Shown one piece after another: positions 17,914 to 60,749 of a stretch of DNA of 64,000 nt; position 1 is the first letter of the stretch, and each line of letters begins with the position of its first letter. Origin of the DNA: Pseudomonas bijieensis (GTDB taxonomy: Bacteria; Pseudomonadota; Gammaproteobacteria; Pseudomonadales; Pseudomonadaceae); the NCBI RefSeq assembly GCF_013347965.1, contig NZ_CP048810.1, forward strand, positions 5,951,501 to 6,015,500, written 5' to 3'. The position numbers and the translations under genes were made by a program. A model generated the notes under the pieces. That model saw nothing but the letters and a program-made list of their open reading frames with translations. It searched no databases and was not told the DNA's origin.

Positions 17914-17955
17914 AAGGCCAGGGCGTGGGCTTCAACCCGCGTCTTGGCTATAACC

Positions 17956-17990
17956 AGAACAGCCGCTCACAAAGCGGCGGTTCTTATTTT
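17956..17990 (+). terminator. Terminator or attenuator between sdhB and sucA
   Basis: A 12-base stem with one mismatch (AGAACAGCCGCT against AGCGGCGGTTCT) over a 5-base loop is followed by TATTTT. The short T run suggests partial termination, which would let sucA and later genes be expressed at a different level from sdh. Confidence 0.6.
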
Positions 17991-18139
17991 GAAGAAATGA
18001 GACAAGCAGGGGCATCCGGGCTGGTACCCGGACTATCAGCGTGATCCTAAGTGGCTTGTTTTAGTCGCTGCACTCGGACTTCTGCAAGTTTGCTCGGTGT
18101 TTTCGCCGGTGGTGTTCCCCTAATCGAGGGTGACCAAGC

Positions 18140-23908: not shown

Positions 23909-23983
23909 CAGCAGTCACAGGTGGTGCGGCACCAGAACGGTGCAGCACCGAATGCGCAGTACCTAACGAAGACGGTAATAAGC

Positions 23984-37144: not shown

Positions 37145-37660
37145 TTAGAAGTTGTCAGTGGAGGTGAAAACGCCGACCCGGAGGCCTTCGGCGGTGTAGA
37201 TCTCGCGACCGTCCACGGCAACCGAACCATCGGCAATGGCCATGTTCAGCTTGCCCTTGAGGACGCGTTTGATATGAATGTTATAGGTGATTTTCTTGGC
37301 GGTCGGCAGGACCTGACCAAAGAACTTCACTTCGCCCGAGCCCAGGGCGCGACCGCGACCCGGCAGGCCTTGCCAGCCGAGGAAGAAACCGACCAATTGC
37401 CACATGGCATCCAGGCCCAGGCAGCCCGGCATGACCGGATCACCTTCGAAGTGGCAGGCGAAGAACCACAGGTCCGGAGTGATATCCAGCTCGGCGACCA
37501 ATTCACCTTTGCCGTACTTGCCACCCTCTTCGCTGATATGGGTGATGCGATCCACCATCAGCATGTTCGGGGCGGGCAGTTGCGCGTTACCTGGGCCGAA
37601 CAGCTCACCGCGACTGCAGCGCAGCAGATCTTCCCGGGTAAAGGCGTTTTGTTTGGTCAT
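37145..37660 (-). CDS. fabA: 3-hydroxyacyl-[ACP] dehydratase/isomerase
   Basis: This 171-residue hotdog enzyme dehydrates 3-hydroxydecanoyl-ACP and isomerises trans-2 to cis-3 decenoyl-ACP, the branch point to unsaturated fatty acids. The catalytic pair is H70 ([14 protein letters not shown]) and D84 (GLDAMWQL). It is the first gene of fabAB. The DesT repressor controls this operon in P. aeruginosa; I see no clear DesT palindrome in the 248-base upstream gap. Confidence 0.97.
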
Positions 37661-37908
37661 GCGAGCTCCTCAATAGTCCCGTGCGGCAGGGTGGGGCAAA
37701 TCTTCCCGGCCGATCGAAGCGTTCATGCCTCGAATCGACAGCCTACTCATAGACTATTGCGTTGTAGTGAAAGTCACAGCACACGGGAAATGAATGTACA
37801 CCTGTGCACTGAAATTTTTATTCAAGCCCCAATCGAGGCTTGTTCGGGTGCCTAAGACTGCCGCACTTTCGCCTTTCACGCCAGTCACAGATGGTCCAGT
37901 GGCCTGTT

Positions 37909-39810
37909 CTAGTTCACCCAGCGCTGCAGAATCTGCTGCAGATCGATCCTTTTGAACGGCTTGGCCAGGTAATCGTTCATGCCCGCCGCGAGGCAGGCTT
38001 CGCGGTCGCCCTGCAACGCGTTGGCCGTCAGGGCGATGATGGGCACCTCGCCGCAGCCCGGCAACTGACGGATCTGCCGCGTGGCTTCGTAGCCATCGAT
38101 GATGGGCAGCCGGCAATCCATGAGGATCGCCTCGAAAATCAGGCTTTCGGCGCTGCGTACCGCCTGGGCGCCGTCGGTGGCGACACTGACGGTGAAGCCC
38201 AGGCTGCGCAGCATGGCTTCGATCACCGTCTGATTGACCGGATTGTCCTCCACCAGCAACACGTTGCGGCCTTCGCCGTCGCCGCTGCCGACGGCCAGTC
38301 GTGGCGCCAGGGGCGTTGGCGTCTGGCGCGACAGGGCCAGCGGGATCTCGAGGGTGAACACCGAGCCCCGACCTTCTTCGCTCTGGGCCCGCAGTGTGCC
38401 GCCCATGCGTTCGGCCAGGGTACGGGCGATCGGCAGGCCCAGGCCAGTGCCGCCGTAGCGCCGGGAGATCGAACTGTCGGCCTGCTGGAAGGCATCGAAC
38501 ATGCGCTCCAGGCTCTCGGCCGGGATACCGATGCCACTGTCGCGCACCGTGCAGGTGAACCACAGCAGTTCGTGGTCCAGGGCTTGCCATTGGCATTGCA
38601 CGGTGACGCGGCCTTGCTCGGTGAATTTCAGGGCGTTGCCGATCAGGTTCACCAGAATCTGCCGTATCCGCGTCGGATCGCCCTGGACCTGCAGGGCCTG
38701 CATGTCGTCCGGGACCAGCAAGTCCAGGCCCAGCTTGCGCTGCGCGGCGCTGTGCTGAAAAGACTGCGCGCAACTGCCCACCAGCTCCGCCAGGTTGAAC
38801 GGGATGTGCTCCAGTTCCAGGGCCGAGCGTTCGATGCGCGAGAAGTCGAGGATGTCGTTGATCACCTTCAGCAGGTGTTCGGTGGATTCTGACGCCAGCG
38901 CCGTGTACTCGTGCTGCTCGTCGGTCATGCGGGTGGTTTCCAGCAGCTGCAGCATGCCCAGTACGCCGTTCATGGGCGTGCGCAGTTCATGGCTCATCAT
39001 CGCCAGGAACTCGGACTTTGCGCTGTTGGCTTTTTCGGCCTCTTCGCGGGTCTTGATCAGTTGAGCCATGGCCTGGTGCTGTTCGCGGCTGGCTTGCTCC
39101 AGACCGCCGGCCAGGTTGTTGATGTGCCGCGACAAGGCCCCCAGTTCGGCGTCATCGACGATGGGCAGTGGGGTGCTGTAGTCGCCTTGCTGGATGGCCT
39201 TGACCGCATTGCCGATGTCGCGGATCGGCCGTGACAGGTTGGTTGCCAGCCGACGCGCCACCAGGAAGGTGAACAACAGGGCGAACAGCGCCAGGATCGC
39301 GGCCTTGAACAGGATCTCCTGCTGTCGCTGACTGAAGGCGTCGCTGGACATGCCGACGATCACGCGGCCCAGGTAGTCTTCGCCGGACGCCTCGACGGAT
39401 GTGCTGTTGCCCTGCAGGAAATCATTGTTCAGGGCAATGCGCTGCAGGCGCACCGGGGCCTGGAAGACTTCGATCTGCTGGGCGCGGCTGCGGGTTTGTT
39501 CGGGTTGTTCGACGTACACCAAGACTTTGTCGGTACTGTCCTGGACCTCCAGGAAGCGCACGTGTGGGGTCGCCAGGGTCGCGGTGAGCAGGCTTTCCAG
39601 GACTTCGTTGTTGCCGGAAATCACCCCGTACTCCGTGGCGGGAGCCAGTTGGTTGGCGATCAGTTGCCCGGTGTGATTGAGTTCCTGGCGCAAGTCCTGG
39701 ATCCGCACGAAGGTAAAGAAGCTGATCAGCAGCACGGTCAGCAGCAACGCCGGGCCGAGGGCGATGAGCTGGGTACGGGTGTTGATGTCCCAACGGCGAC
39801 GCAAGGTCAT
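37909..39810 (-). CDS. Hybrid sensor histidine kinase/response regulator (PA1611-like)
   Basis: This 633-residue protein has TM1 (about 15-35), a periplasmic sensor of roughly 130 residues resembling the CHASE8/GacS-type region (GQLIANQLAPATEYGV), TM2 (about 168-185), HAMP (to about 240), HisKA with H274 (MSHELRTPMNG), HATPase (N392, DSGIGIP, GGTGLGLPIA) and a receiver domain with D565 (MDCRLP) and K617. It has no Hpt domain, so phosphate must go to a separate HptB-like protein. Beside fabA it matches the position of PA1611, which in P. aeruginosa acts with RetS and HptB. Its start overlaps the upstream binding-protein gene (ATGA), suggesting it senses through that protein. Confidence 0.9.
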   Translation of the reverse strand: MTLRRRWDINTRTQLIALGPALLLTVLLISFFTFVRIQDLRQELNHTGQLIANQLAPATEYGVISGNNEVLESLLTATLATPHVRFLEVQDSTDKVLVYVEQPEQTRSRAQQIEVFQAPVRLQRIALNNDFLQGNSTSVEASGEDYLGRVIVGMSSDAFSQRQQEILFKAAILALFALLFTFLVARRLATNLSRPIRDIGNAVKAIQQGDYSTPLPIVDDAELGALSRHINNLAGGLEQASREQHQAMAQLIKTREEAEKANSAKSEFLAMMSHELRTPMNGVLGMLQLLETTRMTDEQHEYTALASESTEHLLKVINDILDFSRIERSALELEHIPFNLAELVGSCAQSFQHSAAQRKLGLDLLVPDDMQALQVQGDPTRIRQILVNLIGNALKFTEQGRVTVQCQWQALDHELLWFTCTVRDSGIGIPAESLERMFDAFQQADSSISRRYGGTGLGLPIARTLAERMGGTLRAQSEEGRGSVFTLEIPLALSRQTPTPLAPRLAVGSGDGEGRNVLLVEDNPVNQTVIEAMLRSLGFTVSVATDGAQAVRSAESLIFEAILMDCRLPIIDGYEATRQIRQLPGCGEVPIIALTANALQGDREACLAAGMNDYLAKPFKRIDLQQILQRWVN

Positions 39811-40739
39811 GGTCGGTGTTCTCCTTCGGCCAACGTTGCCGCGACGGATTCGGCGTCAATCGGTTCGATCCCCAGTGAGCGGGAGACCTGCCGGTTGCCC
39901 AGGACTTTGAAGCGGTCTGGATACAGCGTGCGCGGCCAGGTCGTGGCGGGGCGGTCGAGCAACTCGTCGAGAATCGCCAGCCAGTCTTGTTGGTCGCTGT
40001 AGGTACTGGCCAGGCTGCCGGCCTTGACGAAGGCGGCGCTGGGCCCGATCAGGGCGCGTTGACGGGCATAGCTGCTGAGCAGCAGGTTCTTTACGGTCTT
40101 GGGGTTGTACAAGTCGGGGTCGTCGAGGCCCAACAGCACGTCGCTCTGGCCCAGCAGGTTGTGCAGGGGGCGGCTGTCGTTGGTGTCGTCCCAGCGTTCG
40201 CTGACGATGGCCAGGCCCAGTGGTGCCGCGGCTTGTTGGATGTCCTTGAGCAGGAATTCGCTGTGGGTGTCGTAAAGCACGCCGACGCGTCGCACTTGCG
40301 GCAGGATGGTGCGGATCAGCCGTAATTGCCGCGCCATCGGTGGATCGCTCCACAGCAGGCTCAGGTGAGCCGGCGTCGTCTCGCCCAGGCGGTCGCGGGC
40401 TTGCTGGCGGCTGATACGCAATACCAGGGTGGCCGGTCCCCGGGCGTCTTGCAGGCGCCAGTCGAGGCTGGGCAGGTCAAGCAGGACCAGGCGGATATTG
40501 CCCGGCAACTTGTCTGGTGCCGGTAGATTGGCCAGCGGGGTAAACCGCACGCTGTCTTCGGGGCGCAGGGCTTTCAGGGCCTGGGTGAAAGACTGCACGC
40601 CGGGGCTGTCCGCGGCACCGGTCAACAGGACTTCGGCCGCCCTAGCCTGGATGGGCGCCAGCCACGCAGCAAACACCAGGCATAGCGCCAGCGTCAGGCG
40701 GCCATGAAATGGCGACTTGCGGAGTGGATGCCGAGACAT
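39807..40739 (-). CDS. Periplasmic binding protein (ABC_sub_bind-like), middle of receptor-kinase operon
   Basis: This 310-residue protein has a signal peptide (to about residue 35, ...IQARAAE) and the two-lobed ABC_sub_bind fold (related to LivJ/AraF-type): LLTGAADSPGVQSFTQALK, RRVGVLYDTHSEFLLKDIQQAA and VLLGLDDPDLYNPKTVKNLLLSSYARQRALIGPSAAFVKAGSLAS. No permease or ATPase is adjacent. It abuts the TonB receptor gene with no spacer and overlaps the kinase gene by 4 bases. A role as soluble ligand sensor for the kinase is inferred. The ligand is unknown. Confidence 0.8.
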   Translation of the reverse strand: MSRHPLRKSPFHGRLTLALCLVFAAWLAPIQARAAEVLLTGAADSPGVQSFTQALKALRPEDSVRFTPLANLPAPDKLPGNIRLVLLDLPSLDWRLQDARGPATLVLRISRQQARDRLGETTPAHLSLLWSDPPMARQLRLIRTILPQVRRVGVLYDTHSEFLLKDIQQAAAPLGLAIVSERWDDTNDSRPLHNLLGQSDVLLGLDDPDLYNPKTVKNLLLSSYARQRALIGPSAAFVKAGSLASTYSDQQDWLAILDELLDRPATTWPRTLYPDRFKVLGNRQVSRSLGIEPIDAESVAATLAEGEHRP

Positions 40740-42863
40740 CTAGAACGACAACTCCGCGCTGAAGTACACGACATGGCGGGAGTCGTAGCGGTTGTCGCTG
40801 AAGGTGGTGGGCTGGTTGTCCAGGCGTTGTTGCAGGACCCCCGCCAATTCCAGGCTGGCCTTGCCCAGGGGGATACGCCGGGCGAGGCGGGTGTCCACCC
40901 GTTCGAAGCGATAGCCGTTCAGGGCGTCGGCGCCGTAATAGAACAGCGCGCTGTTCCAGCCCTGGCCCCAGTCCCGTAGCCAACCGGCCGAGCCGCTGTT
41001 GCGGGCGGTCAGTTGCTCGTCGAGGGGGTTGCTGGCCTGGGCATCGACATAGGCGTAGGTCAGGCGCAGACGGTCGGCGCTGGTCACACGCCAGTCGAAC
41101 TGGGTTTCGGCCCCGGAAAACTGGGATTGGTTGGCGTTGCTGGCGATGTACTGATTGTTGCGCAGCGGCTCGCTGATCATGCCGGTGATTTCGTCATGAA
41201 ACAGTTTCACGTCGACCGCCAGCCCCAGGTCCACGAAATAACCGTTGTAGCCCAGTTCCCGGGAGCGCATGTGCTCTTGTTCCAGGTTGCCCGGGCCGCG
41301 CGTCCGGACGAAGTAACGGGCACTGTTCTGGCCGAAGGCGGCGGGTTGCAGGTTGGTGACCTGATAGCTCCAGTTGACGTTGTTCTCGAACATGTCCGGG
41401 GAGCGCACAGCTTCGGAGTACACCGCCCGCAGGCCGTGGCGCGGGGTGATCAGGTAGTTGACCGCGACCCGTGGAGTCAGCGAGCTGCCGGTCAGGCGGG
41501 TGTCTTCGAACATCGCGCCGCCCTGCAACAGCCAATGCTCGGTGGCCCGCCATTCGAGCTGCCCGAACAGGCGCCAGGTGGTGTCGTCCAGGGTGCCGTT
41601 GAAGTACGTCTCCGAGTCGGCCCGGTCGTAGCGATAGTTGGCCCCAGTGACCAGGCGCAGGCTGTCGGACAGGCTCAGGGTGTCCTGGATCTCCAGGTCG
41701 TAACGCGATTCCCGGGCGCTCTGGTCGATATCGCCGCACAGGGTTTGCGAGGCGCCGTTGCGCCACTGGTCGAGCACCTGATTGGCCAACGCCTGTTCCT
41801 GTGGCGTGCCGGCTGGCGCGCCGCTGTTGATGTAGCTGGGGATATTGCGCGCCAGCTTCTCGGCATAGTAGGGGTTGAGTTGCCACAGGTCGGTCAGTTG
41901 CGGGCTGAAGGACACCTCGGCATCGCAGGCGCGCCAGGTCTGCTGGCGATCCCAGTGTTGAATCGAGCCTTGTACATAAACGCTGTGGTCGGGGTCCAGA
42001 TCGAGGTTCCAGCGCAGCGAGCCGGCGTAGTCCTTGGCGATGACGTCAGAGTTATCCCCGGCGGCGGTAATCCCGGCAAACACGGGGCGGTAGGTATAGG
42101 GCCGCTGGTTGGTCCCGTCCTTGGCGTTCAATTGCCAGTCGATGCTCTGTCGTTCGTCCAGGGTCTGGCTGACGGACAAGTTGAAGCGGTTCAGGCGACG
42201 ACTGTCGCGGTAATCGGCGCCGTTGCGGTCGCTGTCAAAGCCATCGTCTTCCTGGCCGGACAGCGACAGCCGAAGGTCGCCGCCTTCCCAGCCGCTACCC
42301 TGGCTGGCGTACCAGTCGCTGATGCCGCGTTGGCCCCGGGTGATTTTCAGCCGGGTGCCGTGGCTGTCGGCGGGGGCGCGGGTGATGATGTTGACCACTG
42401 CCATCAGTGCGTTGGCGCCGTAGCTGACGGTGTTGGGCCCGCGAAAGACTTCGATCCGCTCGATGTCTTCCATGGCCACCGGGATGTCGCTCCAGTCTAC
42501 CGTTGCCAACCCGGCGCGATACACCGAGCGGCCATCGATCAGCACCTGCATGCGGCGGGCTTCGCTGGCGTTGGTGCCGTGGTAGTTCACGGTGGCCTGG
42601 TTGCCGCTGATGTTGCCGACCATCATGCCCGGCACCAGGCGCAGCAGTTCGCTGATATCGCGGGCGCCGCTGGCCTTGATCAACTCGCTGTCGAGCACGG
42701 TCATGCTGCCCGGCACCGCCGCTGGCGATTGCTTCAGGCGCGTGGCCGTCAGCACCTGGGGCAGGGGCTGGCTGTCCACGAACAAGTCGTCGCCTAGCAC
42801 TGGCGGGCTGATGATCAGTGCCAATAACAGGGACGAACCTGGACGGGAGGGGCCAACGGACAC
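40740..42863 (-). CDS. TonB-dependent outer-membrane receptor
   Basis: This 707-residue receptor has a signal peptide (to about residue 25), a TonB-box-like LPQVLTATRL near the mature N-terminus, a plug domain (DISELLRLVPGMMVGNI; EARRMQVLIDGRSVYRAGL; DIERIEVFRGPNTVSYGANALMAVVNIITR) and a 22-strand barrel ending in the outer-membrane signature ELSF. Two cysteines (WRACDAE and TLCGDID) may form a disulfide in an outer loop. It resembles colicin I/vitamin B12-type receptors more than siderophore receptors, but no ligand can be assigned. First gene of the three-gene operon ending in a hybrid kinase. Confidence 0.9.
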   Translation of the reverse strand: MSVGPSRPGSSLLLALIISPPVLGDDLFVDSQPLPQVLTATRLKQSPAAVPGSMTVLDSELIKASGARDISELLRLVPGMMVGNISGNQATVNYHGTNASEARRMQVLIDGRSVYRAGLATVDWSDIPVAMEDIERIEVFRGPNTVSYGANALMAVVNIITRAPADSHGTRLKITRGQRGISDWYASQGSGWEGGDLRLSLSGQEDDGFDSDRNGADYRDSRRLNRFNLSVSQTLDERQSIDWQLNAKDGTNQRPYTYRPVFAGITAAGDNSDVIAKDYAGSLRWNLDLDPDHSVYVQGSIQHWDRQQTWRACDAEVSFSPQLTDLWQLNPYYAEKLARNIPSYINSGAPAGTPQEQALANQVLDQWRNGASQTLCGDIDQSARESRYDLEIQDTLSLSDSLRLVTGANYRYDRADSETYFNGTLDDTTWRLFGQLEWRATEHWLLQGGAMFEDTRLTGSSLTPRVAVNYLITPRHGLRAVYSEAVRSPDMFENNVNWSYQVTNLQPAAFGQNSARYFVRTRGPGNLEQEHMRSRELGYNGYFVDLGLAVDVKLFHDEITGMISEPLRNNQYIASNANQSQFSGAETQFDWRVTSADRLRLTYAYVDAQASNPLDEQLTARNSGSAGWLRDWGQGWNSALFYYGADALNGYRFERVDTRLARRIPLGKASLELAGVLQQRLDNQPTTFSDNRYDSRHVVYFSAELSF

Positions 42864-43062
42864 GGCACAACCTTTGATAATGGGAGGATGGCGGGCATGT
42901 TAACCGAGCTGAACGACTTTTCCATTCACGTTGACAGCATTTTCCTAGGAATTGATGGTCAGCTTCCTACAGCTGGCGGTAATTGTTGCCGGGGCTGGTC
43001 GCGACCTGGCCGCTCCGTATAATGCCCCGCATTGCCACTTGGTATGGATGAACGGATTGCAT

Positions 43063-44088
43063 ATGACTGAACAGCGCCCGATTGCGGTCCTGGGGGGCGG
43101 AAGTTTCGGTACCGCCGTGGCTAACCTGCTGGCCGAGAATGGTCACCCGGTGCGCCAGTGGATGCGTGACCCGGAGCAGGCCGAGGCCATCCGGGTCAAC
43201 CGCGAGAACCCGCGTTACCTGAAGGGCATCAAGATCCGCCCGGAAGTGGAACCGGTGACTGACTTGCAGGCAACCCTGGAGGGTAGCGACCTGTTCTTCG
43301 TCGCCTTGCCGTCCAGCGCCTTGCGTTCGGTACTGGCGCCCTATGCCGAGCGCTTGAGCGGCAAGCTGTTGGTGAGCCTGACCAAGGGCATCGAAGCCCA
43401 GACCTTCAAGCTGATGAGCGAGATTCTCGAAGAAATCGCCCCCAAGGCCCGGATCGGTGTGATCTCCGGGCCGAACCTGGCACGGGAAATCGCCGAGCAC
43501 GCCCTGACCGCCACGGTGGTCGCCAGTGAAGATGAAGAGCTGTGCCAACGGGTCCAGGCCGCCTTGCATGGCCGCACCTTTCGGGTCTACGCCAGTGCCG
43601 ACCGTTTCGGTGTGGAACTGGGCGGGGCGTTGAAGAACGTCTATGCGATCATTGCCGGCATGGCGGTGGCGCTGGGCATGGGCGAGAACACCAAGAGCAT
43701 GCTGATCACCCGTGCGCTGGCGGAAATGACCCGTTTCGCCGTCAGCCAGGGCGCCAATCCGATGACCTTCCTGGGACTGGCCGGCGTGGGCGACCTGATC
43801 GTCACCTGTTCCTCGCCCAAGAGTCGCAATTACCAGGTCGGTTTTGCCCTCGGCCAAGGCTTGAGTCTCGATGAGGCCGTGTCGCGCCTGGGTGAAGTGG
43901 CCGAAGGGGTCAACACCCTCAAGGTGCTCAAGGCAAAATCCCAGGAGGCGGGAGTGTACATGCCGCTGGTCGCCGGGCTGCACGCGATTCTGTTCGAAGG
44001 GCGCACGCTTGAACAGGTGATCGAGCTGTTGATGCGTGGCGAACCGAAGACCGACGTCGATTTCATTTCCACCAGCGGTTTCAATTGA
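43063..44088 (+). CDS. gpsA: Glycerol-3-phosphate dehydrogenase [NAD(P)+]
   Basis: This 341-residue enzyme reduces dihydroxyacetone phosphate to sn-glycerol 3-phosphate for phospholipid synthesis. It shows the Rossmann loop [19 protein letters not shown] (from residue 9), [11 protein letters not shown] and the catalytic lysine in [20 protein letters not shown] 43063 matches the family start; the longer frame upstream is noncoding. It heads gpsA-DUF4389-sixA. Confidence 0.96.
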
Positions 44089-60336: not shown

Positions 60337-60412
60337 GTCCCCTTCGTCTAGTGGCCTAGGACACCGCCCTTTCACGGCGGTAACAGGGGTTCGAGTCCCC
60401 TAGGGGACGCCA
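60337..60412 (+). tRNA. tRNA-Glu (anticodon TTC), copy 1
   Basis: The 76-base cloverleaf has the acceptor stem GTCCCCT/AGGGGAC, anticodon loop CTTTCAC (anticodon TTC), T-loop GGTTCGAGTCC and encoded CCA. Confidence 0.97.
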
Positions 60413-60414
60413 AT

Positions 60415-60490
<76 letters not shown>

Positions 60491-60594
60491 ATTTTAAACA
60501 GCGTTGCTTTCGGGCAAAGCTGAGTGAAACCAGAACCAACTCTTCGGAGGCGGATCTGGGCACTGGAACACACACCATGTGTTCCGGGCAGCGT

Positions 60595-60670
60595 GTCCCC
60601 TTCGTCTAGTGGCCTAGGACACCGCCCTTTCACGGCGGTAACAGGGGTTCGAGTCCCCTAGGGGACGCCA
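60595..60670 (+). tRNA. tRNA-Glu (anticodon TTC), copy 2
   Basis: This appears identical to the copy at 60337-60412. The 104-base spacer before it has no promoter of note, so all four tRNAs are probably one transcript. Confidence 0.97.
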
Positions 60671-60673
60671 TTT

Positions 60674-60749
<76 letters not shown>

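Follow-up and report, generated by a model that had tools for sequence, protein, structure and literature searches.

Described systems and the three genes of the window

Sensor kinases driven by a substrate-binding protein (SBP) are known from LuxP-LuxQ, TorT-TorS and XylFII-LytS (PMC6321045). In P. aeruginosa, PA1612 and PA1611 form an operon that lies upstream of fabA, is co-transcribed into fabA and was called seemingly unrelated to fabAB, and deletion of PA1611 had no effect on fabA (PMC3462791); the kinase PA1611, whose receiver contains D522, D565 and R567, hands phosphate to HptB (PMC7467158) and counters RetS through an interaction independent of the conserved phosphorelay residues (PMC4866733). 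The present work concerns three genes of Pseudomonas bijieensis, encoding a TonB-dependent receptor, an SBP and a PA1611-type hybrid histidine kinase, in a stretch of 64,000 nt (contig NZ_CP048810.1, positions 5,951,501 to 6,015,500), hereafter the window. All three lie on the minus strand, between the divergent gpsA and fabA-fabB:

40740..42863, minus strand: TonB-dependent receptor, GTG start, 707 amino acids
42399..42719, minus strand: plug domain of the receptor (residues 49-155; PF07715, 80.3 bits)
40911..42137, minus strand: TonB beta-barrel match of the receptor (residues 243-651; PF00593, 86.6 bits)
39807..40739, minus strand: periplasmic type I SBP, ATG start, 310 amino acids
39807..39810, minus strand: stop/start overlap of the SBP and kinase genes, 4 bases
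37909..39810, minus strand: PA1611-type hybrid histidine kinase, ATG start, 633 amino acids; its receiver matches that of PA1611 (7c1j)
39313..39717, minus strand: periplasmic sensor domain of the kinase (residues 32-166 as used here; sCache_4 match at residues 36-101)
39094..39249, minus strand: HAMP domain of the kinase (residues 188-239; Pfam)
38830..39021, minus strand: HisKA domain of the kinase (residues 264-327), phospho-accepting H274 by motif
38335..38682, minus strand: HATPase_c domain of the kinase (residues 377-492; Pfam)
37927..38262, minus strand: receiver of the kinase (residues 517-628), with D565

The coordinates confirmed what an earlier, sequence-only reading of this DNA had stated, namely that the receptor stop codon (40742-40740) abuts the SBP ATG at 40739 and that the SBP and kinase genes overlap by 4 bases. 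We read the three genes, with a probability of roughly 0.7, as a trans-envelope sensor, in which a sensor kinase depends on a binding protein and is served by an outer-membrane receptor of its own. The sequence itself shows the gene order, its conservation, the modular output, the rate coupling, the predicted SBP fold and the presence of hptB-hsbR-hsbA-like genes. The TonB receptor, judged by its family, would bring a scarce ligand into the periplasm, where the type I SBP, with no adjoining ATP-binding cassette (ABC) transporter, would capture it. Gene order, modularity and rates suggest that the SBP would then contact the sCache_4 (PDC-like) domain of the kinase, probably at its membrane-distal tip, and SBP occupancy would reset the kinase state; output in this strain would run through HptB-HsbR and/or through keeping RetS off GacS.

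Both the plug and the beta-barrel of a TonB-dependent receptor were recognised by Pfam in the first protein, and a TonB-box-like stretch was seen by eye after its signal peptide. The SBP, with a signal-peptide-like N-terminus (by eye), was predicted by AlphaFold2 to adopt a type I binding-protein fold, with a predicted local distance difference test score (pLDDT) of 92.4. The model matched solved PF04392-like structures, and the solved folds closest to it were 3lkv, 6hnj and 3lft; since 3lft is titled as an L-Trp complex, this likeness, which concerns the whole fold and not the pocket residues, makes an L-Trp-like ligand a lead. The SBP scored 28.4 against the TrpX model, for which 390 is needed. 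A PF04392 search of its own genome returned nothing at E up to 0.001, so that this model alone misses the window SBP.

The kinase shared with the unorthodox kinases GacS and BarA the order sCache_4-HAMP-HisKA-HATPase-receiver but differed from them in having no C-terminal Hpt domain detectable by Pfam and in possessing its own binding protein; its best NCBIfam score, for BarA, was 463 of the 890 needed. Residues 513-632 aligned gap-free to 7c1j, the solved receiver of PA1611, with D522, D565 and R567 at the same numbers in both proteins, and the gene lies directly upstream of fabA. These findings bear out the identification, in the sequence-only reading, of a PA1611-type kinase without Hpt beside fabA. 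Elsewhere in this genome, an Hpt gene adjoins receiver-phosphatase-like and STAS-like genes among flagellar genes, a cluster that we take, by eye, to be hptB-hsbR-hsbA; proteins with the 7TMR-DISM domain, known from RetS and LadS, are also present. No output partner was seen within the Pseudomonas run. With a receiver but without an Hpt domain, the kinase may, by analogy with the published work on PA1611, feed HptB-HsbR and/or keep RetS off GacS. The earlier reading had left out the phosphorelay to HptB (PMC7467158).

As in LuxPQ, TorTS and XylFII-LytS, a type I SBP is encoded with the kinase, and LuxP was among the fold matches of the window SBP. The window system differs from these three in its sCache_4-like sensor, its PF04392-like SBP, the TonB receptor in the run and an output that can be GGDEF-EAL; the three described systems are not known to include a TonB receptor gene. 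SBP-driven kinases are already known, but a TonB receptor combined with a PF04392-like SBP and an sCache_4 sensor appears to be a new form; the literature was not searched for receptor-SBP-GGDEF-EAL runs. Open-licence papers matching receptor, binding protein and kinase together were, by title, genome, proteome, transcriptome or regulon studies, and in the accessible parts of this literature no link of PA1612 or PA1613 to PA1611 signalling was found, PA1612 being named there only in PMC3462791. The receptor gene PA1613 was counted among iron-acquisition proteins in a study of iron-protein vaccines (PMC9864456); it is also named in PMC3462791 and is tabulated, with a first count of 6, among genes mutated in parallel in cystic fibrosis isolates (PMC4199492). 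The P. aeruginosa side of the comparison is taken from papers, the nearest named record being the SBP of P. paraeruginosa (P0147).

Gene order within and beyond Pseudomonas

In a sample of 99 Pseudomonas genomes, including that of the window, the kinase (E ≤ 1e-130) was found in 98, the SBP (E ≤ 1e-3) in 74 and the receptor (E ≤ 1e-100) in 69, and the receptor never occurred without the SBP (0/69). The reverse case, in which the SBP was matched but the receptor was not, was observed in five genomes: G001, G022 and G113 (loci L047-L049), G081 (L050), in which the SBP is a fragment, and G071, which is not informative because its SBP lies at a contig end. Among 80 named loci, retained from 84 relatives that had been picked by SBP homology and did not include P. 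aeruginosa, the order gpsA-receptor-SBP-kinase-fabA-fabB was conserved in 76 and the kinase in all 80; four had no receptor at the threshold used, one of them (L176) showing a weaker receptor match. The SBPs of named species nearest to that of the window were those of P. ogarae and P. brassicacearum (94-96% identity). With start codons chosen nearest to those of the window genes, 117 of 119 loci showed the 4-base SBP/kinase overlap and 106 of 112 a receptor-SBP spacing of at most 10 bases, so that the tight joins exceed chance. At L051 the SBP was split over two frames and at L042 the kinase was split, possibly through decay or sequencing error.

The arrangement extends beyond Pseudomonas, which the sequence-only reading had not mentioned. 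An SBP profile matched 68 of 194 genomes of the order (E ≤ 1e-8) and a second profile 39 of 185 genomes of the class (E ≤ 1e-15), the window's own genome counting in each case. The surroundings of 45 order-level loci (43 of 75 profile matches, hand-picked over many families, plus 2 from another search; 3 of the 45 from Pseudomonadaceae) and of 20 class-level loci out of 43 matches were read; the counts cover the 44 and 18 loci with a called SBP open reading frame (ORF), L087, L241 and L255 being left out. A receptor lay within 3.5 kb on the same strand at 37/44 order-level and 16/18 class-level loci, and a sensor protein within 600 bases of the SBP at 39/44 and 18/18. Receptor, SBP and sensor occurred together at 35/44 and 16/18, that is, at 51 of 62 further Gammaproteobacteria loci; an earlier figure of 32/45 for both partners, obtained by stricter rules under which opposite-strand ORFs hid genes, is superseded by 35/44. 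The trio recurred at places without gpsA and fabA, and the genes outside it resembled, by eye, housekeeping genes that differed between families.

The output side of the trio was variable. Some of the kinases outside Pseudomonas carried an Hpt domain, and a response-regulator-like ORF, recognised by its N-terminal motif, lay within 3.5 kb at nine order-level loci (four genes away at one of them) and one class-level locus; all six such ORFs tested with Pfam were Response_reg+GerE. At two class-level loci, L243 and L251, the third gene encoded sCache_4-HAMP-PAS-GGDEF-EAL in place of the kinase and followed a receptor of ordinary type and a binding protein that scored above the Pfam cut-off for PF04392. 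Receptor, SBP and sensor domain therefore stay together while the output changes.

Several other arrangements were observed. The runs L243:3150-8661 and L251:2927-8495 represent a possible ligand-controlled switch of cyclic di-GMP. In G136 (L100), G174, G182, G198, G206 and G214, all of one genus, a kinase frame of about 490-510 amino acids lay directly behind the SBP, with the match stopping before the receiver; a receptor was seen in this group only at L100. Tandem SBP genes, two between receptor and kinase, were present at L077 and L088. At L054, an SBP-kinase pair without a receptor match adjoined a Ser/Thr kinase gene and type VI secretion-like genes (by eye).

The chances appear evenly balanced that receptor, SBP and sCache_4 sensor constitute a widespread, undescribed three-part input module in Gammaproteobacteria whose outputs are interchangeable (a hybrid kinase, an unorthodox kinase accompanied by a LuxR-type regulator of its own, or GGDEF-EAL), and that in Pseudomonas this module provides the ligand input so far missing from the PA1611-RetS-Gac and HptB branches. 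Should receptor and SBP prove to feed PA1611, the ligand of this branch of the RetS/GacS/PA1611/HptB biofilm-control network could be sought with the soluble, well-folded SBP and not with a membrane-bound kinase. Because the SBP is naturally absent time and again, and because the output is swapped, the trio also offers a clean comparative system for SBP docking on sCache sensors.

The same genes could instead be an uptake system, receptor and SBP working with an ABC permease encoded elsewhere and the kinase being merely a co-transcribed neighbour of fabA. The SBP does share the fold of amino-acid binding proteins that serve ABC importers, the genome is rich in ABC ATPases (144 matches listed, 150 of 229 candidates having been scored), and the kinase persists where the receptor/SBP pair is absent. 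However, in line with the sequence-only reading, neither importer component was found in the run: Pfam found no ABC ATPase in the window, the nearest among the matches listed lying about 50 kb ahead of the window and 30 kb past it, and no permease was seen in the ORF list of 30000-52000, which was read without a profile search. Recurrence of the trio beside varying housekeeping-like genes (judged by eye and without a search for ABC genes there), the nearly constant SBP-kinase overlap, the retention of receptor, SBP and sensor domain in the GGDEF-EAL swap and the rate shift described below all argue against this explanation, which we consider unlikely.

Evolution of the sensor domain

If the SBP docks on the kinase, its absence is predicted to release the sensor domain but hardly any other part. 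Rates were compared on a fixed tree of 86 rows built from gpsA, fabA and the cytoplasmic part of the kinase, which includes only 13 of the 80 named loci and none of L042, L099 and L100, and in which L050, with its SBP fragment, was scored as lacking the SBP. SBP presence changed 10 times on this tree, 8 of the changes being forced by starred branches; because the trio is so widespread, the changes are read mainly as losses.

With L050, L187 and L190 dropped, the branch-length ratio of sensor domain to core was 4.25 in the 33 rows without SBP versus 1.85 in the 50 rows with SBP, a contrast of 2.29 (1.71-2.82 in 100 column bootstraps), whereas that of the receiver was 0.86 (0.64-1.06); the sensor-domain excess was about 1.8 relative to gpsA and about 1.5 relative to fabA. 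A first run on 64 rows, also without L042, L099 and L100, had given 4.39 versus 2.22. In phylogenetically independent pairs, chosen greedily by shortest core distance in two windows, the median sensor-domain/core ratio was 2.36 without SBP (11 pairs) versus 1.48 with SBP (16 pairs; p 0.0055), and 2.24 (14 pairs) versus 1.40 (20 pairs; p 0.017) in the wider one; the pair differences were not significant for the receiver (p 0.14 and 0.23) or gpsA (p 0.26 and 0.22). End-branch ratios were 1.96 in rows with SBP but no receptor (n=6), 2.14 in complete rows (n=44) and 4.28 in rows without SBP (n=33).

Conservation changed in the same domain. Sensor-domain entropy was 1.18 with and 1.47 without SBP, with core and receiver not raised, and four sensor-domain residues, I64, G66, Q123 and L127, were at least 90% conserved where the SBP is present and less than 70% where it is absent, a shift shown by no core or receiver column. 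In the kinase model, residues 64-66 are placed where a long helix rising from the membrane ends; this is the distal tip, at which the SBP may dock. The rate coupling is indirect evidence that SBP contact with the sensor domain may alter kinase activity, as in LuxPQ and TorTS. Together with the gene order far outside Pseudomonas and the GGDEF-EAL swap, the rate shift supports the proposal, already made in the sequence-only reading, that receptor and SBP serve as the input of the kinase.

A number of observations weigh against the trans-envelope sensor. Contrasts versus the core also exceeded 1 for gpsA (1.27), fabA (1.51) and the HAMP-linker (1.47), so that part of the excess is general, and the faster change of the sensor domain may reflect relaxed sensing in general and not loss of a contact. 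Single ratios of the six rows that have the SBP but lack the receptor scatter from about 0.7 to 6.9; one HAMP-linker column shares the conservation shift of the four sensor-domain columns; the kinase model is weak (pLDDT 70); and the SBP scored 20.2 bits against ABC_sub_bind (PF04392), below the curated cut-off of 25.9. Outside the genus, a receptor match was missing at 7/44 order-level and 2/18 class-level SBP loci, and 5/44 order-level SBP loci had no adjoining sensor, some of them near contig ends. Within the genus, 24 of the 98 kinase-bearing genomes had no SBP match; at all 24 loci (L023-L046) neither receptor nor SBP was matched and the gpsA and kinase matches were less than 550 bases apart. 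The kinase must therefore also act without the pair, which the published interaction with RetS would allow. Frequent loss of receptor or SBP beside a retained kinase was what the sequence-only reading had named as evidence against itself: the pair is indeed not obligatory, although no receptor outlived its SBP and the absence leaves its mark on the sensor domain. Its kinase type and input pair are thus supported, but not the strictly dedicated unit.

A kinase that senses the ligand directly, with the SBP scavenging or buffering the same ligand and travelling along without contact, would accord with PDC domains such as those of CitA and DcuS, which themselves bind small ligands, and with the putative pocket of GacS in such a fold (PMC5595915). 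It does not easily explain why the rate shift tracks the SBP and not the receptor (n=6), nor why conservation of I64 and G66, which the model places close to the distal tip, is confined to kinases with an SBP, and it appears improbable. FecA and FpvA exemplify cell-surface signalling in which a TonB receptor is linked with a signal, and a receptor signalling through its own N-terminus in this manner would fit its sharing a run with a signalling protein, but it is very improbable here, since Pfam found no N-terminal STN domain in the receptor and no sigma/anti-sigma genes were seen by eye in the ORF list of the run; in the trans-envelope sensor the signal would pass by a soluble SBP instead.

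Flanking genes and other features of the window

The trio is flanked by the following features:

37145..37660, minus strand: fabA, downstream neighbour (named from translation and place)
43063..44088, plus strand: gpsA, divergent upstream neighbour (start placed inside a longer ORF)
42864..43062, no strand assigned: divergent intergenic region between gpsA and the receptor gene, without a Fur-box-like site above background and without an Rfam match

Fur control of the receptor was considered and rejected, the best upstream match being 11/19 to a Fur consensus, a score of at least 11 being reached at 170 places in the window. No Rfam match was obtained upstream of the receptor at E up to 1, and scans of 37600-43200 for sigma-70 promoters and terminators gave nothing above shuffles. 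Elsewhere in the window, a sucA-II RNA motif was located at 17918-18136 and a sucC RNA motif at 23914-23982, and four consecutive tRNA genes, forming two pairs with equal scores, were located at 60337-60746.

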